A DNA stretch of 64,000 nucleotides from Nitrospirales bacterium (GTDB lineage Bacteria; Nitrospirota; Nitrospiria; Nitrospirales; UBA8639): the NCBI GenBank assembly GCA_020027535.1, contig JAHRAK010000024.1, positions 1 through 64,000 on the forward strand, in the 5' to 3' direction. Position 1 is the stretch's first letter; every line of letters starts with the position of its first letter. The notes under the pieces are model-generated. The model did not search any database. It was not told where the DNA came from and saw nothing but the letters and a program-made list of their open reading frames with translations. The position numbers were made by a program, and so were the translations under genes. Of this stretch, positions 6,551 to 54,906 are shown piece by piece.

Positions 6551-7468
6551 ATGAAAATCCTCATAGCCGTAGATGGATCACAGCAGTCCTTCTACGCTAT
6601 TCACGCTCTTGCACAATTCGGGCCATTTGACGAGATCACTTTGGTCCACGCACTCCAACTTCCTGACCTTGATCACCCCATGATCCCTCCGGACATAAGG
6701 GAAAAAGCGATGCAGGAAATGAAAAACACCCTCAGACCGAAAGGTGAGGCGTTATTGGAGCGAACCCAGTCCGAACTACCCAAAGGGGTGGGGACTGTGA
6801 CTCGGATCCATCAAATTGGCTTACCGGCAACGGTCATTTTAGAGGCCGTCGAATCCGTCAAACCGGATCTCATCATGATGGGCGCCCGGGGCCTCGGACC
6901 GATTAAAGAACTGGCCATGGGCAGCGTTTCCCATAGGGTCCTTTTACATGCCCCATGTTCCATCCTCATCGTGAAAAATCCCTTGCCCGCACTCGAACAC
7001 GTTCTGATGCCAATAGAGAGCAAGAGCGATGCCGAATACCTGCTTCGCTATTTGTTTTCTCTTCCCTTTGTGACAAAGCCACGATTGAGTGTCATGTCGG
7101 TATGGCCTCAACCGCAGTTGCCTTGGCCGGTGACAGTGTCACAAAGCAACATGTTGGAAGAGCACGCACGGATCCACGCTCGTGAGGTGGCGGAAGAAAT
7201 AGCGCAACAGGCTCAAGCCAAGCATTTTTCGAGCCAGGCTATCGCGGGATTAGGCGATCCGGCGTTTACGATTCTGGAACAAGCCCGCATGATCAAGCCG
7301 GACATGATCATGGTCGGGTCGCATGGTCGCCGCGGGTTATCCAGATTTCTGCTTGGAAGCGTCTCTCATAGCCTGGTTCATCAGGCGACTGATTCTGTTC
7401 TGGTCGTCCGGCAAGCCGGGAGTGAAGAAGGTTGTCCTCTGTCGCTATCTGCTACAGAGAGAAACTGA
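6551..7468 (+). CDS. Tandem universal stress protein (two Usp domains)
   Basis: MKILIAVDGSQQS; GARGLGPIKELAMGSVSHRVLLHAPCSILIV; GSHGRRGLSRFLLGSVSHSLVHQATDSVLVV. Confidence 0.93.
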   Translation: MKILIAVDGSQQSFYAIHALAQFGPFDEITLVHALQLPDLDHPMIPPDIREKAMQEMKNTLRPKGEALLERTQSELPKGVGTVTRIHQIGLPATVILEAVESVKPDLIMMGARGLGPIKELAMGSVSHRVLLHAPCSILIVKNPLPALEHVLMPIESKSDAEYLLRYLFSLPFVTKPRLSVMSVWPQPQLPWPVTVSQSNMLEEHARIHAREVAEEIAQQAQAKHFSSQAIAGLGDPAFTILEQARMIKPDMIMVGSHGRRGLSRFLLGSVSHSLVHQATDSVLVVRQAGSEEGCPLSLSATERN

Positions 7469-7563
7469 GAAGTGAGGCAGAGATCGTCAACTTCCATCCG
7501 CACTTGGGTTCGAACATCCTGATGATTCAATTTTACCAGCTATGGTCTATCAGGCTTTTTCTC

Positions 7564-7579
7564 TGGCATGCCTTTTGCT
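7564..7579 (+). promoter_or_regulatory. Sigma-54 promoter (TGGCAT-GCCTT-TTGCT)
   Basis: Matches TGGCAY-N5-TTGCW; 70 nt upstream of the CDS at 7649. Confidence 0.7.
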
Positions 7580-7648
7580 TTCCCTTGTGAAGAGGAGGAT
7601 TTTTCACAAGTGAATTCTCTCCTTCAATTCATGACAAGGGAATCGACC

Positions 7649-7993
7649 ATGAACCAGACACAAGCAGACATTTTGGTCCAACGCATTCGAGCGAAGTCGA
7701 GACATTCCGACTCTTACGACATCCCACGCTCACCCGGGGCGCGCATAGACACATGCCATTCGATGCTAGGCTACTCCGAAGTCTTTTTGCTTGACGACGG
7801 ATCGGTGATCGAGGTGGGCAAGGCTGTGTTGCTTTCGTGGGGATGTTTGGCCGCGTACGACGGCATACATCCAACTTGTCCGAATTGCCGAAACGATTTG
7901 TCGCTTGACGGAATGGGGAGAAAAAAGAAAACGCTGCGGGAACTGCACGACTGTATGGTCTGCGGATGGCAGGACGCGGATATTCGTACGTAA
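7649..7993 (+). CDS. Small hypothetical protein with CPNC...CMVC putative zinc ribbon
   Basis: ORF with conserved-looking CxxC pairs, placed between a sigma-54 promoter and hsp20. Confidence 0.6.
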   Translation: MNQTQADILVQRIRAKSRHSDSYDIPRSPGARIDTCHSMLGYSEVFLLDDGSVIEVGKAVLLSWGCLAAYDGIHPTCPNCRNDLSLDGMGRKKKTLRELHDCMVCGWQDADIRT

Positions 7994-8048
7994 ACGTATC
8001 ATTTTCCCTTTCACAATCATCTTTCATCATTCAAGCAGGAGGTTTGCC

Positions 8049-8504
8049 ATGAATGCCCTCACACGTTGGGATCCCTTTCGGGAACTCGATGAATTACAAA
8101 ATCGCCTTTCCATGTTGTTTGGACGGACACCGGTCAAGAAAAATGGCGAGCAGCAAGAAGCCCTGACCGTCACGGAATGGGCCCCCTTGGTGGATATCGC
8201 GGAGGACGACAACGCTTACGTCATCACGGCAGAACTTCCCGGATTGAAAAAGGAAGACATCAAAGTCGGCGTCCAAGACGACGTGTTGACCATCTCCGGT
8301 GAACGCACATACGAAAAGGAAGAGAACGGCAAAAAATTTCACCGGGTTGAGAGAGCGCATGGCAGGTTTTCCCGCCAGTTTACTATTCCCGGGAATTCCG
8401 ACGGCGAAAAGGTTTCTGCTGAATTCAAAGACGGGATGTTGCAAGTCCATCTGCCAAAGACCGAAACAGTCAAACCCAAGCAAATTGAAGTCGCCGTGGG
8501 ATAA
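8049..8504 (+). CDS. Hsp20/alpha-crystallin small heat shock protein
   Basis: MNALTRWDPFRELDELQNRLSMLF; AYVITAELPGLKKEDIKVGVQDDVLTISGER; SD AGGAGG. Confidence 0.95.
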   Translation: MNALTRWDPFRELDELQNRLSMLFGRTPVKKNGEQQEALTVTEWAPLVDIAEDDNAYVITAELPGLKKEDIKVGVQDDVLTISGERTYEKEENGKKFHRVERAHGRFSRQFTIPGNSDGEKVSAEFKDGMLQVHLPKTETVKPKQIEVAVG

Positions 8505-47460: not shown

Positions 47461-47932
47461 GGGCTGATCCCAAAAGTTGTAGCCGCGCGATCATTCTTCC
47501 TTCTGTCATTCCCGCAAGCTTGTCCCCGACGTTTGTAATCGGGGATCTAGTGTACTCACGAATCCAGTGTCGTTCTCCTCGCGAACGGAAGAAAAAGCAA
47601 AGACCCTGGATCCTCGATTAAAGATGTCGAGGATGACAGAGAGGGAGGGAGAAGGAGGGGAAGACCAAGGCACTGGCGCGACGCCGAGTACGCGATAGGT
47701 ACAACGTCTTGCCATACACGCCGGTTTTTGGAACTATCATTCTTGACACCCGTCTCCGCAGGCCGTGGCGGGGTCTGTCGGGGCGTGGCGGCTCGATACA
47801 TCTTGTTGCATTGCCCAAATGTCCGGTGCTAAGATCCGTTTCCAATTTTTGGCCCTCGTGGTGCGACTTCTCGTATTCCACTGAAGGTGTGAGACCCGAA
47901 TCGACTCGTGAAGTTTCGTAAGGAGGCTTCTC

Positions 47933-49990
47933 ATGTATAAAACCATCTACATCCCGGTCGACAATTCCGACCATTCGAATGTGGCCGTCGACCTGGGTGT
48001 GCAGTTGGCGCAGGAATTTGGTTCAAAAATCGTCGGCAGCCACGTCTATGCCGCCAAAATGCACGATAAGCGGTTCAAGCAAATGGAAGCGGGGCTTCCG
48101 GAAGAATATCACGACGAAAAAGAGCTCGATCGTCAACGCAAGATTCACGATTCCCTCATCACGCGAGGGCTCCAGATCATTACCGATTCCTACCTCGACT
48201 ACGTGGATCAAAAGTGTACCGAGTCGAATCTCCCCCTGGAACGCCGGTCCCTGGAAGGTCGCAATTGGAAGGTGTTGGCCGAAGACATCAATACCAATGC
48301 CTACGACCTGACCATTATGGGCTCGCTGGGGGTGGGCGCCGTGAAGGATTCCGTGATCGGCAGCAATACCGAACGGGTCCTGCGCCGGGTGCGCAATTCG
48401 GACATGTTCATCGTGAAAGACCTGAAGCCCATGAACGGCGGGAAAATCGTCGTGGCCGTGGACGGCAGCCCGTACAGCTTCGGCGGATTGAAAACCGGGC
48501 TTGCCCTGGGAAAAGCGTTGAACAAGCCGGTCGAGGCCATTTCCGCCTTCGATCCGTATTTTCACTATGCCGCCTTTCACAGCATTTCCGGGGTCCTGAA
48601 CGAAGAGGCCGGCAAGGTCTTTCGCTTCAAGGAACAGGAAAAACTCCATGAGGAAGTGATCGATAGCGGATTGGCCAAAATCTACCAATCGCACCTGGAT
48701 ATTTCCCGCGAAGTGGCCCAGGAAGAAGGATCGGACATCCGCACCACCCTCCTGGACGGGAAGGCGTTCGAAAAAGTCCTCCAGTACGTTCGGAAAGAAA
48801 AACCCTGGTTGCTGATCGTCGGGCGCATCGGCGTGCACAGCGACGACGACATGGATATCGGCAGCAACACCGAGAACCTGCTTCGGGCGGTGACCTGTAA
48901 CGTCCTGATTTCCAACAAGAAATTCGTGCCGCCGATCGATACCCAAGCGGAATATACCATTGCCTGGACCGAGGAAGCCTTGCTGCGGATGGAAAAGGTT
49001 CCGGTATTTGCGCGTGGCGTCGCCAAGACCGCCATTCACCGCTATGCCATTGAAAAAGGGCATACCATCATCAGCAATTCGGTGGTCGATGACGCGGTCG
49101 GCGATATTTTGCCGAAAGGGGCCATGGATGCGATGAAAGCCCTGGGCGGCCAGCTCGACGAGGCCGGGATCGACCGCAACCAGATGCAAGCCGACGACGC
49201 CGTGGCGACGGATCTTATGGGCTCGACCCTCAGCGGCATGGTCAACCAAGTGGTTGAAGAAACGGAGCCTGCCGCGAATCCGGCCGTAAGCCCGTCCACG
49301 CAATCCTATCTGGACCGCATGGCCCAACCGTATTACGTCTGTGACGGGTGCGGGTACATCGGGAAGGGCGCCCAACCCGTGAAATGTCCCATTTGCGGGG
49401 GAGCGGGCGACGGCTTCAAAACGGTCGACAAAAGCATGTTCGACGCGGCGGCCAAGCAGGAAGGGGTCCTGGAAACGCAACTGGCCTACGACGACGTGCC
49501 CATGCAATGGACGAAAGACGCGAAAGAAGCCATCCGGGCGGTACCCGCGGGCTTCCAGCGCCGCCGCGCCAAAGCCAAGATCGAAAAGTCCGCGAGAAAA
49601 CTCGGCATGACCACCATCACGTTGGAGTATGCCTCACCCATGATTGACGAAGCCGCGAACGAAGACTATACCCCGATTTTCGCCAACAAGGAGGCGGACG
49701 TGGAACAACCTGCCCCTCAGCCGAACGGGCCGGCGCCGGTACCCGACTCGCCCTACGATTGGGAGCCCGAGGCCTTGCAACGATTGGAGCGCGCGCCCGA
49801 AGGGTTTATGCGCGATTGCACCCGGGCCCTCATCATCAAGCACGCCGACAAGCTGGGGACCACCCGGATCACCATCGACGTGGCAAACGAAGGGATCGAG
49901 CAGGCCAAGCAGACCATGGAAGAGGCCATGAAGTCCGGCAACGTCAAAGACATCATCGCCAAACTGACCGGCGCGGGCGCTCAGCAATAG
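47933..49990 (+). CDS. Multidomain: two Usp domains, rubredoxin-like zinc ribbon, three PCP_red-like domains
   Basis: Usp YKTIYIPVDNSDHSNVAVDLG; rubredoxin-like YYVCDGCGYIGKGAQPVKCPICGGAGDGF; repeats WTEEALLRMEKVPVFARGVAKTAIHRYAIEKGH, WTKDAKEAIRAVPAGFQRRRAKAKIEKSARKLG, WEPEALQRLERAPEGFMRDCTRALIIKHADKLG. Confidence 0.88.
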   Translation: MYKTIYIPVDNSDHSNVAVDLGVQLAQEFGSKIVGSHVYAAKMHDKRFKQMEAGLPEEYHDEKELDRQRKIHDSLITRGLQIITDSYLDYVDQKCTESNLPLERRSLEGRNWKVLAEDINTNAYDLTIMGSLGVGAVKDSVIGSNTERVLRRVRNSDMFIVKDLKPMNGGKIVVAVDGSPYSFGGLKTGLALGKALNKPVEAISAFDPYFHYAAFHSISGVLNEEAGKVFRFKEQEKLHEEVIDSGLAKIYQSHLDISREVAQEEGSDIRTTLLDGKAFEKVLQYVRKEKPWLLIVGRIGVHSDDDMDIGSNTENLLRAVTCNVLISNKKFVPPIDTQAEYTIAWTEEALLRMEKVPVFARGVAKTAIHRYAIEKGHTIISNSVVDDAVGDILPKGAMDAMKALGGQLDEAGIDRNQMQADDAVATDLMGSTLSGMVNQVVEETEPAANPAVSPSTQSYLDRMAQPYYVCDGCGYIGKGAQPVKCPICGGAGDGFKTVDKSMFDAAAKQEGVLETQLAYDDVPMQWTKDAKEAIRAVPAGFQRRRAKAKIEKSARKLGMTTITLEYASPMIDEAANEDYTPIFANKEADVEQPAPQPNGPAPVPDSPYDWEPEALQRLERAPEGFMRDCTRALIIKHADKLGTTRITIDVANEGIEQAKQTMEEAMKSGNVKDIIAKLTGAGAQQ

Positions 49991-50004
49991 GGAGTCGCCA
50001 CCGT

Positions 50005-51369
50005 ATGGGCAAATCACTCCCCGTCATCAATGCCCCGCAAGGGGAAGGGCTCGACCCCCGCGTCACCGGGTTTACCTCTCCCGGAGCCGGTCCCGGCGAC
50101 GGCCGGACCGTCGATGATTTCAAGCCCTACCTCGTCGCCCTGAACCTCACCAAACGCTGCAACCTGAAGTGCGACCACTGCTATCTGGACGCCACGACCA
50201 AGGCCGGCGGAGGATCCGATGAACTCTCGACGGAAGAATGTTACCGGCTGATCGATCAGATCGCCGAGGTCAATAAAGGGTGTTTGCTGGTCATCACCGG
50301 GGGCGAACCCTTGGTCAGGCCGGACATCCTGGACATTGCCCGCCACGCCGTGGCCCAGGGGTTCATGGTCGTCTTCGGCACCAACGGCATGCTGATCAAC
50401 GATCGCCTGGCCCGCGAACTCGTGGAGATCGGGGTCATGGGCATGGGCATCAGCATCGACTCCCTCGACTCCGGCAAACATGACGCGTTTCGCGGCATTC
50501 CCGGGGCCTGGGAAGCGGCGGTCGCGGGGATCGAAGCCTGCAAACGGAACGGCCTCCAATTTCAGGTGCATTTCAGCGCCCAACCCATGAACTACAAGGA
50601 ATTGCCGGACGTGATCGACTGGGCCCATGGCCTGGGCGCGCGCGTGCTGAACGTCTTCTTCATGGTGTGCACGGGCCGCGGCGAGGAACTGACCGACATC
50701 ACTCCCGAACAGTACGAGGAAGTGCTGGGCTTCCTGGTGGAGTCCCAGGACCGGTACTCGGACATGCTGGTGCGCGCGCGGTGCGCCCCGCACTTCAAAC
50801 GCCTCGCCTATGAAAAAGATCCCAATTCCCCGATCACCAAAGCCCAGGGGTACATGGGCGGGGGCTGCCTGGCGGGGACGAATTATGCCAGAGTCACTCC
50901 CAATGGGGACCTGACTCCCTGTCCTTATATGCCCCTGTCAGCCGGGAATATCCGAGACACCAGTTTCGTGGATCTGTGGGAAAAGTCGGATATTTTCGAT
51001 TCGTTCCGGTACCCCCACCTGAAGGGCAAATGCGGCGACTGCGAATACAGCGAGATCTGCGGCGGCTGCCGGGCGCGGCCCTACGTGGATCACGGGGACT
51101 GGATGGATGAGGACCAGTGGTGCCTGTATACGCCCAAAGGCGGGGACAAAATCCAGGTCGCGTTCAACGTGCCCGAGGAGGTCGAGGTGGAATGGGATGA
51201 AGGCGCGCAGACGCGGTTAAGCCGGATCCCCTACTTCCTGCGCGCCATGGTGAAAAAAGGCACCGAACGGCACGCCCGCGAACACAACATCCCGCTCATC
51301 ACCGTTGAACTCATGGAAGAGCTTCGCCAAAAACGCTTCGGCAACGAGAAGCCGGTGTTTAAATTCTGA
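50005..51369 (+). CDS. Radical SAM/SPASM protein (NirJ/AhbD-like) with C-terminal PCP_red-like domain
   Basis: LTKRCNLKCDHCYLDA (CxxxCxxC); CGDCEYSEICGGCRARPY; C-term VEWDEGAQTRLSRIPYFLRAMVKKGTERHAREHNIPLIT. Confidence 0.92.
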   Translation: MGKSLPVINAPQGEGLDPRVTGFTSPGAGPGDGRTVDDFKPYLVALNLTKRCNLKCDHCYLDATTKAGGGSDELSTEECYRLIDQIAEVNKGCLLVITGGEPLVRPDILDIARHAVAQGFMVVFGTNGMLINDRLARELVEIGVMGMGISIDSLDSGKHDAFRGIPGAWEAAVAGIEACKRNGLQFQVHFSAQPMNYKELPDVIDWAHGLGARVLNVFFMVCTGRGEELTDITPEQYEEVLGFLVESQDRYSDMLVRARCAPHFKRLAYEKDPNSPITKAQGYMGGGCLAGTNYARVTPNGDLTPCPYMPLSAGNIRDTSFVDLWEKSDIFDSFRYPHLKGKCGDCEYSEICGGCRARPYVDHGDWMDEDQWCLYTPKGGDKIQVAFNVPEEVEVEWDEGAQTRLSRIPYFLRAMVKKGTERHAREHNIPLITVELMEELRQKRFGNEKPVFKF

Positions 51370-51896
51370 TGAATGCCCTCCTGGCCACGCTTTCCGATCT
51401 CAACAAAGTCATTCCCATTGTCAACCACTGGTTGCACCTGCTCTCGGCCGTCGTGTGGATCGGAGGACTCGCCTTCCTGGTCCTGGCGGTGACGCCGGGG
51501 CTCCAATCGTCCGTGCCCAAGGAATATATCAAACCCATCTGCGACACCTTCTACAAGCAGTATCGCAAGGTGGTCGGCATCCTGCTGGTCGTGATCCTCT
51601 TCACGGGCGGCATCAACCTGCATTACGTGGGGGAACTCATGGAAATGCAGACCGGCAACGGCCTATCCCATAACGCCAAATACCTGACGGTCTTTTTCAT
51701 TAAACTCACGTTGGTCCTGGGCATTCTGACCTTGTTTCTGTATACCGTCATCTTTCGCATCGAGCCCACGGGCGAGGAAGATGAACAAGAAAAAGAAGAG
51801 CAAAACGTCGAACCCATCCCCTTCCAAAAAGCCGGCCTCTGGATAGGCATCCTCATAATCCTCTGCGCCGCCGCCATGAAACATTTGCATTTGTAA
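51369..51896 (+). CDS. CopD-like membrane protein
   Basis: VNHWLHLLSAVVWIGGLAFLVLAVTP; start overlaps the radical SAM stop (TGATG). Confidence 0.75.
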   Translation: MNALLATLSDLNKVIPIVNHWLHLLSAVVWIGGLAFLVLAVTPGLQSSVPKEYIKPICDTFYKQYRKVVGILLVVILFTGGINLHYVGELMEMQTGNGLSHNAKYLTVFFIKLTLVLGILTLFLYTVIFRIEPTGEEDEQEKEEQNVEPIPFQKAGLWIGILIILCAAAMKHLHL

Positions 51897-52228
51897 TCAC
51901 TGTTTTCTCCCTCGCCCCCCGGGAGAGGGCCGGGGTGAGGGCGCTTTCCCCCCTTCTGTCATCCTCGACATTTTTAATCGAGGATCCAGCGTCTTGTCTT
52001 TTGTCTGTGTTTTTTTGTCTGTCATCCTCGACATCTTTAATCGGGGATCCAGTGTCTTTGTCTGCGTAGCTACGATCTTCCTCGATCGCCTCCTAGGCAA
52101 GTCGGGCACAAGAATTGATGGTACCAGAAGGGGGTACTTGTTCCGACAACGAATGAAAGCGTATTTATGAGGCGTTAAAGGGCTGCTTTAACTCTCAATT
52201 TAGACCGAAATTGAAGGAAGGTTACGGA

Positions 52229-53206
52229 ATGGCAGGTGAAAGCATGAGCGACATAGACGAAACAAAAGATGAGGCATTTGGTCTTGTTCAACAATTTCTA
52301 AAACACCGCCCTGTGATCATTTGGGGTTCGGGAGCAACCATCCCCTACGGGCTCCCGAGCATGAATGACTTAAAGAAAAAATTAAACCCCAAGCTAGGGG
52401 CTATCGATGAAGATACTGATTTAGAATCCGCGTTGGAGAAAGTCGAAAATTCGAAAATTGATGAAATCAAAAAAATCATAAGGGATGAAGTTCTCAAACG
52501 AGATAGAGCATGTCTGAATCATTACTTGCGAGATACAAATTACTTTCAGGCAATAATTAAAATGATAGAGAAATTTTACAATCCTGATCCATGCAAGATC
52601 GATATTGTGACCACTAATTATGATTGCGTTTTGGAATACGCGCTGTCGATGGCCAACTACAATTTCACAGATGGATTCACTGGCAGAGCATTATCAAAAT
52701 TTAACGCAAACGCTTTTGGAGAAAGAAAAGTAATAAATTTAATGAAGGTTCATGGGTCATTAAACTGGTTTTCTGATGAAGACAACGACATATTTTATTT
52801 ACCGAGTGAACCCGATTCAGACAAACTGAAATATGGCATGGTGCTACCTGCCCGCAATAAATACGATGAGGCTTTTGAAGAGCCATACAGAACTCTCATT
52901 GGAAAATCGGATAGTGCTATTGCGCAGGCAAACAGTTTCTTAGTTGTTGGCTTTGGTTTTAATGATAAACATTTGACGCCAAAGATTGACAGTAAAATTA
53001 AAAGAGGCTCTCCCATTGTCATTATCACCAAAAAGGCAACAGATTCCTGTAAAGAAAAGCTGAATAAGGCTGGCAAATACTGCTTGTTTGAGAAAAACAC
53101 AGGCGCAACCAAAGTCACATTCAAAAAAGGAAAAGAATCTGGTGAACAAAATATTCTGTTAGAAGGAAGCTACTGGGAACTCGATAAATTTATGGAGGTG
53201 TTATGA
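52229..53206 (+). CDS. SIR2-domain protein of a SIR2-HerA defence system
   Basis: RPVIIWGSGATIPYGLPSM, IDIVTTNYDCVLEYAL, LMKVHGSLNW, FLVVGFGFNDKHL; AT-rich; overlaps the HerA gene. Confidence 0.88.
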   Translation: MAGESMSDIDETKDEAFGLVQQFLKHRPVIIWGSGATIPYGLPSMNDLKKKLNPKLGAIDEDTDLESALEKVENSKIDEIKKIIRDEVLKRDRACLNHYLRDTNYFQAIIKMIEKFYNPDPCKIDIVTTNYDCVLEYALSMANYNFTDGFTGRALSKFNANAFGERKVINLMKVHGSLNWFSDEDNDIFYLPSEPDSDKLKYGMVLPARNKYDEAFEEPYRTLIGKSDSAIAQANSFLVVGFGFNDKHLTPKIDSKIKRGSPIVIITKKATDSCKEKLNKAGKYCLFEKNTGATKVTFKKGKESGEQNILLEGSYWELDKFMEVL

Positions 53207-54906
53207 GTGGATCAGAACCCAAGCCGTTGGGAAAAGTAGAAAGTGTTGATACAGGGAATGTTGTTATTAAAGTCATTGAAGAGCAAATGCTTAACAGCAT
53301 TCAAGTAAATAATTTACTGCGTATCCGCTCGACAAAAACAAGTGAAGCCATTATCGGTTTGGTTGTAAAAATCATGCGCAAGTCTTCTGATAAGGAAGAA
53401 CCAGATAGTCCTGATGAAGTTATTGTCGAGAATGTAGTGAAAGCCTGTTTGGTTGGCACGCTGCTGGATAAATACGGCACAAAAGCCAATGTGTTCAAGC
53501 GAACCCTAGAGACGGTACCTAGCCTTGATGCAGATTGCTTTCTGATCGAAGGCGAAGATCTTTCAAAATTCATGAAATCCTTATCTGTCAGTGATGAGAA
53601 AAAAGAAAAGTCACTCAATATTGGAGAATATGCGATATCAGAAGATGCCCCAACGTATTTGGATGGCAATAAATTCTTCCAAAGGCATGCAGTGATTGTT
53701 GGCAGCACGGGCTCCGGCAAATCCTGGACAGTTGCTAAAATCTTAGAGAGATCTTCTCAACTAACATCTGCAAACAGTCTCATTTATGATATCCATGGCG
53801 AATATAAGCCGCTTAGCGCATTAAACAATACAACTTTATTGAGAATCGCGGGGCCTGTAGATAAAGAAGATAACGAAGACGTTATCTATTTGCCTTACTG
53901 GCTTTTATCCTATGAAGAAATAGCGGCGATGATGCTGGATAGAAGCGATCAAAATGCTCCGAACCAAGCAAGAATATTGTTCGACTTAATTATTGAACAT
54001 AAGAAACAGAAACTCGAAGAAGGTGGAAGGGAAGCTGTCCTCAATAACTTTACCATCGATAGCCCTGTTCCCTATCCCATAGATGAAGTCTTAAGAGAAC
54101 TTGAAGAGAAAGATAAAGAGATGGTTCCAGGGGCTGGTAGTAAAGACAAACAGGGGCCTCTAAATGGAAAACTCACTCGCTTTATTCAGCGATTAAAGAG
54201 CAAGCAAAGCGATAAAAGACTGAATTTTCTTTTTAACAGCAATTCAGCTTTGCAGGACTACGGCTGGCTTGAAAAGTTGGTTGAAAAGTTGATGGATTTT
54301 AATAATAAACGAGGAAATAAAATTATCGATTTTTCAGAAGTACCTTCAGACATACTGCCGTTGATAACCGGTTTGGTGACAAGGTTGATTTTTTCAGTGC
54401 AACAGTGGACGCACGAGGAAAAGAGACATCCTATCGCCTTGTTTTGTGATGAGGCGCATCTATACATCCCTGCTGACACAAGCAGTTCAAGCATTGAGGA
54501 AAGAGGCCTCCATAATTTCCAGAGAGTCGCGAAGGAAGGAAGAAAATATGGTGTATCCTTGGTTGTAATCAGCCAAAGGCCAGCAGATGTTAGCAAGACA
54601 GTTTTGAGCCAGTGCGGTAATTTCATATCAATGAGACTCTCAAACCCTGATGATCAGAATGTCATAAGGAGATTATTTCCAGATAGCTTGGGGAATTTTG
54701 CTGATTTGTTACCAGCGCTGGATATAGGCGAAAGTCTAATTGTAGGTGACGCCTGTCTGTTACCAAGCAGAGTGAAAATTCATGAGCCCGCTGTTAAACC
54801 GCAAAGCGCTACTGTTGATTTTTGGGATGAATGGAAAAAAGACAAAACAGAAAAAGGAATCAAAGAAGCTCTTGAATCGTTAAGAAAGCAGAGCAAATCT
54901 GCCTAA
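53203..54906 (+). CDS. herA: HerA-like ATPase of a SIR2-HerA defence system
   Basis: HAVIVGSTGSGKSWTVAKILE, HPIALFCDEAHLYIP, GRKYGVSLVVISQRPADVSKTVLSQCGNFISMRLSNPDDQ. Confidence 0.9.
   Translation: MSGSEPKPLGKVESVDTGNVVIKVIEEQMLNSIQVNNLLRIRSTKTSEAIIGLVVKIMRKSSDKEEPDSPDEVIVENVVKACLVGTLLDKYGTKANVFKRTLETVPSLDADCFLIEGEDLSKFMKSLSVSDEKKEKSLNIGEYAISEDAPTYLDGNKFFQRHAVIVGSTGSGKSWTVAKILERSSQLTSANSLIYDIHGEYKPLSALNNTTLLRIAGPVDKEDNEDVIYLPYWLLSYEEIAAMMLDRSDQNAPNQARILFDLIIEHKKQKLEEGGREAVLNNFTIDSPVPYPIDEVLRELEEKDKEMVPGAGSKDKQGPLNGKLTRFIQRLKSKQSDKRLNFLFNSNSALQDYGWLEKLVEKLMDFNNKRGNKIIDFSEVPSDILPLITGLVTRLIFSVQQWTHEEKRHPIALFCDEAHLYIPADTSSSSIEERGLHNFQRVAKEGRKYGVSLVVISQRPADVSKTVLSQCGNFISMRLSNPDDQNVIRRLFPDSLGNFADLLPALDIGESLIVGDACLLPSRVKIHEPAVKPQSATVDFWDEWKKDKTEKGIKEALESLRKQSKSA

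Follow-up and report, generated by a model that had tools for sequence, protein, structure and literature searches.

In this study, we describe a three-gene operon on the forward strand, at positions 47933-51896, of a 64,000-nucleotide stretch of DNA from a Nitrospirales bacterium (assembly GCA_020027535.1, contig JAHRAK010000024.1, positions 1-64,000; hereafter the window, and its assembly the window genome). The genes encode, in this order, a protein with universal stress protein (Usp) and PCP_red domains (UspPCP), a radical S-adenosylmethionine (SAM) enzyme with a C-terminal PCP_red domain (rSAM-PCP), and a CopD-like membrane protein. We put at about one half the probability that this operon represents, in this genome, a widespread module, built around a radical SAM enzyme derived from AhbD, which modifies or delivers a tetrapyrrole for a cytochrome bd-like oxidase complex. 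The tetrapyrrole is suggested by the kinship of rSAM-PCP with AhbD and NirJ2, by its eight-cysteine spacing, by the occurrence of PCP_red on BchB/ChlB, and by HemY-type neighbours; the bd-like target is suggested by co-occurrence, by linkage, and by a zinc-ribbon protein with two PCP_red domains inside the bd-like operon. An earlier note, made from the letters of the window, had proposed the genes as a candidate undescribed system, and the literature searched indeed held no description of the module, nor any report joining PCP_red or bd-like/anammox with radical SAM, or joining Nitrospira, universal stress protein and protochlorophyllide reductase. PCP_red itself came up there only in a materials paper of no relevance.

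The radical SAM enzyme and its PCP_red domain

The product of gene 2 matches the Pfam families Radical_SAM (PF04055, 84 bits), SPASM (PF13186, 39.5 bits) and PCP_red (PF08369, residues 397-441, 53.2 bits). It fits the full motif described for AhbD, that is, CX3CX2C plus the SPASM pattern CX20-33CX17CX36-37CX2CX5CX2CX17-35C (PMC10452713), with SPASM spacings of 27-17-36-2-5-2-17. Its best NCBIfam match is NirJ2 (TIGR04055, 330.6 bits), followed by AhbD (TIGR04545, 313.5 bits), both under the 500-bit cut-offs of these models, while families of peptide maturases reach at most 141 bits. Across Nitrospirota, rSAM-PCP proteins score 285-338 bits with the AhbD model, as against about 450 for ordinary AhbD-like proteins. 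A quick tree of 103 proteins, with an uncertain root, groups the PCP_red-bearing radical SAM enzymes into one clade (Shimodaira-Hasegawa-like approximate likelihood ratio test, SH-aLRT, 99), placed on the AhbD side of the branch dividing AhbD-type from AhbC-type enzymes (SH-aLRT 98) and beside archaeal and bacterial AhbD-type groups; in two further members of the clade PCP_red was not called, namely a protein of 362 aa and one of 319 aa that lies at a contig end. From this sequence kinship we propose that rSAM-PCP descends from the lineage of the heme synthase AhbD, and we judge that the earlier note was right to raise the idea of a tetrapyrrole substrate.

The AlphaFold model of gene 2 has a radical SAM/SPASM fold, closest among solved structures to PqqE, SuiB and SkfB, and a PCP_red domain of three helices. 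That these enzymes and anSME are the nearest SPASM structures by sequence or fold would suit a protein or peptide maturase that introduces a cross-link or other residue modification into a cytochrome c of the complex or into the bd-like subunit itself, PCP_red being then a domain for protein docking; tandem PCP_red in proteins that have no enzyme domain (L010, L011 and L009, below) would suit docking too. We consider such an activity unlikely, because the NirJ2 and AhbD scores exceed by more than twofold the score of every peptide maturase family, HemY-type neighbours and the PCP_red of BchB point to tetrapyrroles, and the loci read, covered for open reading frames of 60 aa or more, showed no recognisable small precursor peptide beside the genes.

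PCP_red was recognised in the solved structures 2kru and 2xdq of subunit B of light-independent protochlorophyllide reductase (DPOR). Its presence in both UspPCP and rSAM-PCP, another proposal of the earlier note, is confirmed by significant profile matches in both proteins and by these DPOR structures; in UspPCP three stretches together reach 107.3 bits (E 3.9e-31, gathering cut-off 32.5). In the window genome, 12 copies of PCP_red are spread over four sites: the operon, a separate protein of four repeats (L010, 6411-7394), a zinc-ribbon protein (L011), and a locus beside an Mrp ATPase (L009). The four-repeat PCP_red protein, free-standing in the window genome, forms a fusion with the radical SAM enzyme in L052 and L069, where the next gene downstream encodes a HemY-type oxidase. 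At L009, on the reverse strand, an Mrp/NBP35-type ATPase gene (7475-8389) stands next to one for a zinc-ribbon protein with two PCP_red domains (6679-7422), and similar pairs of Mrp and a small PCP_red protein are found close to the module in L048, in L154 (Bacteroidota) and in L159 (Gemmatimonadota); this pairing may point to cluster delivery.

Spread of the module and its proposed bd-like oxidase partner

Nitrospirota were sampled as a draw of 296 genomes, many of them drafts, first screened with one radical SAM sequence at E <= 1e-60, a limit within which some divergent rSAM-PCP proteins barely fell. Of the 99 Nitrospirales, 97 gave a match, nearly always with 80-98% identity, and so did some 40 of the other Nitrospirota, at whatever identity. 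In close relatives the neighbouring proteins keep the same order and are 80-98% identical, so that the cluster is not a product of chance; the neighbourhood is thus kept in relatives, as expected of the system that the earlier note proposed, and the module recurs in other phyla. Many of the remaining Nitrospirota genomes have AhbD-like proteins that end before PCP_red, and a profile re-check of seven AhbD-only Nitrospirota genomes again found no rSAM-PCP. A scan of a collection of 84,980 species genomes placed rSAM-PCP in anammox Planctomycetota (Scalindua, Anammoxibacter, Brocadia) and also in Nitrospinota, Alpha- and Gammaproteobacteria (Pseudomonadota), Gemmatimonadota, Bacteroidota, Acidobacteriota and others.

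A Usp gene stands directly 5' of the radical SAM gene in most loci and lineages read across Nitrospirota. For Nitrospirota and the collection scan together, a tandem-Usp gene immediately precedes the radical SAM gene in 61 of 84 loci encoding PCP_red-bearing enzymes versus 2 of 34 encoding enzymes without PCP_red, and both exceptions are members of the rSAM-PCP clade called without the domain. A motif search found the ATP-binding motif G-2x-G-9x-G(S/T) intact in both Usp domains of gene 1, and a Crp/Fnr-like regulator lies upstream of the module in L062, L066 and L067. Along with the rubredoxin-like ribbon of UspPCP, these features would fit a stress and redox-control unit in which Usp senses ATP or redox state, the PCP_red and rubredoxin domains regulate respiratory electron transfer, and the radical SAM enzyme is unrelated. 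The tight tie of the Usp protein to the radical SAM gene in those 61 loci, and the PCP_red domains that both usually bear, make this quite improbable.

A gene recurring near the module encodes a protein, mostly of 560-680 aa, that resembles cytochrome bd subunit I (PF01654, about 51 bits) and is followed by di- or multi-haem cytochromes c. This set matches the bd-like oxidase cluster known, from excerpts of the published accounts, in Nitrospira, Nitrospina and anammox bacteria (PMC3578206, PMC6606698). According to the same excerpts, the bd-like proteins have been proposed to act as terminal oxidase in Nitrospira, whose genomes concerned encode no canonical heme-copper oxidase, and what they do in Nitrospina and anammox bacteria is called enigmatic (PMC6606698, PMC3578206).

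Among Nitrospirota outside Nitrospirales, 36 genomes have both rSAM-PCP and the bd-like subunit (two of them, G030 and G241, on the basis of radical SAM fragments), 4 only the former, 3 only the latter, and 154 neither (36/40 vs 3/157; Fisher 2e-31). The corresponding numbers in the order of a Sedimenticola genome are 34, 4, 1 and 171 (34/38 vs 1/172; Fisher 1e-33), and in collection-scan genomes of many phyla the bd-like subunit is present in 34 of 38 with rSAM-PCP versus none of 12 with AhbD only. The two are jointly present or absent within the Nitrospirota families f27, f28, f29, f32 and f35, and mostly so in f19. Moreover, they are linked: in the Sedimenticola order 24 of the 34 pairs share a contig at distances of 7.2-19.7 kb, 23 of them within 9.3 kb, and the module adjoins the bd-like operon in loci of anammox bacteria, Alpha- and Gammaproteobacteria, Gemmatimonadota, Bacteroidota and Thermodesulfobacteriota. 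Within the Nitrospirales bd-like operon itself lies the gene of a zinc-ribbon protein with two PCP_red domains (window genome, L011 6849-7331), which has the same position in L232, L235, L237, L265, L266 and L270, that is, in most Nitrospirales bd-like operons read; it may be the 'one putative zinc finger' protein that excerpts on the published cluster mention.

Nitrite oxidoreductase (NXR) was rejected as sole partner, NxrA being near few module loci only (L138, L139, L160 and some Nitrospirota). In L062, L066 and L139, a histidine that most bd-like proteins conserve ('QLHLLFAAF') is replaced by methionine, a possible change of heme ligand.

Heme routes and the proposed mechanism

Other heme routes were surveyed in 40 Nitrospirota genomes by counting matches over cut-off: HemN was found in 4, HemF in 2, HemY/CgoX in 36, ferrochelatase in 27 and a ChdC-family protein in 21. 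The last was present in every tested Nitrospirales except the window's own assembly; HemN and HemF were found in none of the Nitrospirales tested, which have CgoX/HemY and ChdC instead, and nearly all genomes without ChdC have HemN, HemF or AhbD. Furthermore, rSAM-PCP is kept beside an AhbD or HemN/HemF route in several genomes (G062, G083, G111, G156, G266; G008, G049, G119, G131). Since most genomes tested have another terminal heme route, rSAM-PCP is there an additional enzyme and not simply the enzyme for heme b. The idea that it substitutes for a missing coproporphyrinogen oxidase was dropped because Nitrospirales have CgoX/HemY and ChdC, and it is also contradicted by the HemN, HemF or AhbD of other rSAM-PCP genomes.

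Ferrochelatase (PF00762) went undetected in nine genomes of the window's family f1 (G000, G065, G081, G179, G187, G125, G137, G253, G271); HemY is present in this family and HemE in L241 and L242, and another chelatase may be used. In the window genome (G000), HemY is seemingly split across contigs C39 and C65 and no ChdC was found, probably owing to assembly gaps.

The same survey bears on the view that rSAM-PCP, as an equivalent of AhbD, decarboxylates coproheme in an oxygen-independent manner and backs up the H2O2/O2-dependent ChdC in making ordinary heme b, with the bd-like link reflecting only heme demand. The AhbD-side tree position and AhbD-like eight-cysteine motif would agree with it, as would the reliance of Nitrospirales, which are without HemN/HemF, on CgoX/ChdC, the ordinary AhbD that adjoins HemE in Thermodesulfovibrionia-type genomes (in L074 with HemH and HemY as well), and the genomes G006 and G007, which show no other route among those tested. 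We nevertheless hold this view to be unlikely, given that several genomes with AhbD or HemN/HemF retain rSAM-PCP and AhbD-only genomes are without it, that its distribution tracks the bd-like subunit and not the heme b route, and that its Nitrospirales neighbourhoods showed no recognisable heme-pathway gene.

Several points weigh against a tetrapyrrole module serving the bd-like oxidase. The tetrapyrrole substrate is predicted from sequence, and SPASM enzymes modify peptides too. The Fisher tests ignore phylogeny, the AhbD-only control genomes are largely anaerobes, and the co-occurrence could reflect another linked respiratory component (cytochromes c, cupredoxins, NXR). The module does not adjoin the bd-like operon in Nitrospirales; in the window genome no linkage was seen, the radical SAM gene being on contig C67 and the copy of the bd-like gene that has a PCP_red neighbour on C74. 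Each of the tests includes four genomes with rSAM-PCP and no detected bd-like subunit, and a few show the reverse; these mismatches may be due to draft assemblies. The module HemY proteins do not form one separate clade, so that HemY may have been recruited repeatedly. Finally, G006 and G007 have rSAM-PCP and gave no match to HemY, ferrochelatase, HemN, HemF or ChdC, and in them rSAM-PCP might serve ordinary heme synthesis.

If the module does act on a tetrapyrrole for the bd-like complex, rSAM-PCP would generate a 5'-deoxyadenosyl radical and oxidatively modify side chains of a porphyrin or heme, most likely the propionates, with two auxiliary [4Fe-4S] clusters relaying electrons. The PCP_red domains of the enzyme, of the Usp protein and of the small zinc-ribbon proteins may hold or hand over the tetrapyrrole and dock partners, and the rubredoxin-like ribbon of the Usp protein could be an electron carrier gated by the ATP-binding Usp domains. 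A neighbouring oxidation or delivery step would fall to the CopD-like membrane protein here, or to a HemY-type flavin adenine dinucleotide (FAD) oxidase in other phyla, and the product would be inserted into the bd-like oxidase complex (bd-like subunit with di- or multi-haem cytochromes c). We advance more tentatively, as a possibility with the odds against it, that a new modified heme or other tetrapyrrole is present in the bd-like complex of nitrite oxidisers, anammox bacteria and their like, and that PCP_red is a general non-photosynthetic tetrapyrrole carrier domain; rSAM-PCP, Usp-PCP and HemY/CopD-like proteins would then form a pathway dedicated to the cofactor. The role that we favour for the module, in modifying or delivering a tetrapyrrole, can be tested through its predictions on the heme content of the bd-like complex and the loss of that content on removal of the radical SAM gene. 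If true, it would offer a handle on the cofactor and assembly of bd-like oxidases across phyla.

Operon layout, third gene and comparison with known systems

The features of the operon are collected in Table 1. All three genes are on one strand. Their positions and the one-base overlap of genes 2 and 3 at TGATG (51367-51371) are as the earlier note had them, and the same overlap occurs in L042, L043, L076 and L046. The ATG of gene 1 is immediately preceded by the Shine-Dalgarno sequence AGGAGG, and gene 2 most likely starts at ATG 50005, 14 nt past gene 1. That note's Usp, PCP_red and SPASM radical SAM calls are confirmed, and its rubredoxin-like and CopD-like calls held, though below Pfam cut-offs here; the function that it had left unexplained can be narrowed by the AhbD/NirJ2 kinship, the clusters in other phyla, and the co-occurrence and linkage with the bd-like oxidase. 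In gene 1, the two Usp stretches (PF00582) reach 106 bits, above the gathering cut-off, the second spanning residues 171-326. The ribbon, with all four cysteines present, scores 18.9 bits with the rubredoxin-like family PF21349 (E 1e-3, cut-off 26.5) and matches the C-terminus of nigerythrin (E 8.6e-7); a longer homologue, in L060, has three ribbons and 55 bits.

Table 1. Features of the operon, with positions in the window
Feature	Position	Strand	Basis
Gene 1, UspPCP: tandem Usp, PCP_red, rubredoxin-like, 2x PCP_red; 685 aa	47933..49990	+	Pfam; synteny with radical SAM gene
Two Usp domains, gene 1	47933..48910	+	Pfam; ATP motifs at residues 130 and 297
PCP_red repeat 1, gene 1	48965..49096	+	52.3 bits
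Rubredoxin-like Cys4 ribbon, gene 1	49334..49417	+	CDGCG at residue 470, CPICG at residue 485
PCP_red repeat 2, gene 1	49508..49627	+	41.8 bits
PCP_red repeat 3, gene 1	49760..49885	+	31.4 bits, slightly below the 32.5 cut-off
Gene 2, rSAM-PCP: radical SAM/SPASM, C-terminal PCP_red; 454 aa	50005..51369	+	Pfam, NCBIfam, tree
Radical SAM core, gene 2	50143..50622	+	CX3CX2C at C52/C56/C59
Eight-cysteine SPASM region, gene 2	50782..51123	+	C260-X27-C288-X17-C306-X36-C343-X2-C346-X5-C352-X2-C355-X17-C373
C-terminal PCP_red, gene 2	51193..51327	+	57.3 bits; matches 2kru, 2l09, 2xdq; modelled as three helices
Gene 3, CopD-like 4-helix membrane protein with invariant W21-x-H23 and TGGxN; 175 aa	51369..51896	+	

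The similarity of gene 3 to CopD is real but weak (PF05425, 28.9 bits, below the cut-off of 32.1; NCBIfam CopD, E 4e-10), and a structure search gave no significant match. A HemJ-like role was rejected, no HemJ match in Pfam or NCBIfam and no significant fold match having been found. Among the Nitrospirota loci read, the CopD-like gene adjoins the radical SAM gene only in Nitrospirales and in G119, G273 and G139; it is the least conserved part of the module, and elsewhere a HemY-type oxidase takes its place. Such an FAD oxidase gene lies directly 3' of the rSAM-PCP gene in 16 of 50 collection-scan loci and in L052 and L069 (18 of 84 overall). The module HemY is a second copy besides the canonical one in G008 and G049, and G119 has a second HemY near its bd-like operon. 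A module-specific HemY subfamily was rejected, the module proteins belonging to several clades (one-clade hypothesis, approximately unbiased test, p 0.001).

The CopD-like third gene, and a cupredoxin-like protein and DUF420 found in bd-like operons, could be taken to mean that the genes encode assembly factors for a copper centre or for membrane proteins of the bd-like complex, with the CopD-like protein as key part. We give this very little credence, as the radical SAM/Usp pair occurs in many phyla whereas, outside Nitrospirales, only a few relatives have the CopD-like gene. No action of AhbD-type enzymes on copper sites is known.

Outside Nitrospirales, a protein of 217-253 aa is encoded downstream of rSAM-PCP in L056, L061, L063, L064, L065, L068, L070, L071 and L081, with a weaker match in Bacteroidota L257; the member tested, from L068, had no Pfam match down to E 0.1. 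In the window, intergenic copies of a short sequence like a repetitive extragenic palindrome (REP), resembling GTCATCCTCGACAT(C/T)TTTAATCG(A/G)GGATCCAG, flank the operon at about 47590-47640 and 51950-52060. Directly downstream are SIR2-like (52211-53206) and HerA-like (53203-54906) genes on the forward strand with overlapping ends, assigned by PADLOC (SIR2 366 bits, HerA 764 bits) to the Sir2-HerA type of antiphage defence system.

With regard to known systems, excerpts of the published accounts of the bd-like cluster name no radical SAM or PCP_red protein (PMC3578206, PMC6606698). The copper resistance protein CopD and gene 3 are both 4-helix membrane proteins, gene 3 being shorter than the full CopD model. 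NirJ2 and NirJ of heme d1 biosynthesis (TIGR04055, TIGR04051) have the domain order of rSAM-PCP; no heme d1 biosynthesis genes were recognised in the rSAM-PCP neighbourhoods read. AhbD, the heme b synthase of the siroheme-dependent pathway, resembles rSAM-PCP in its radical SAM and SPASM domains, eight-cysteine spacing and side of the tree, and AhbD-type proteins are about 38-46% identical to the rSAM-PCP queries. However, rSAM-PCP forms its own clade, carries a C-terminal PCP_red and scores below the AhbD cut-off, and it is tied to Usp-PCP and bd-like operons, whereas AhbD is tied to AhbA/B-like and HemB genes; several genomes hold both. BchB/ChlB, subunit B of light-independent protochlorophyllide reductase, ends in PCP_red as rSAM-PCP does, but the PCP_red copies of the window genome are found without a nitrogenase-like body, in Usp, radical SAM or zinc-ribbon proteins or by themselves. 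If the proposed role is true, rSAM-PCP would constitute a third family beside AhbD and NirJ2, and PCP_red would have a role outside chlorophyll synthesis.

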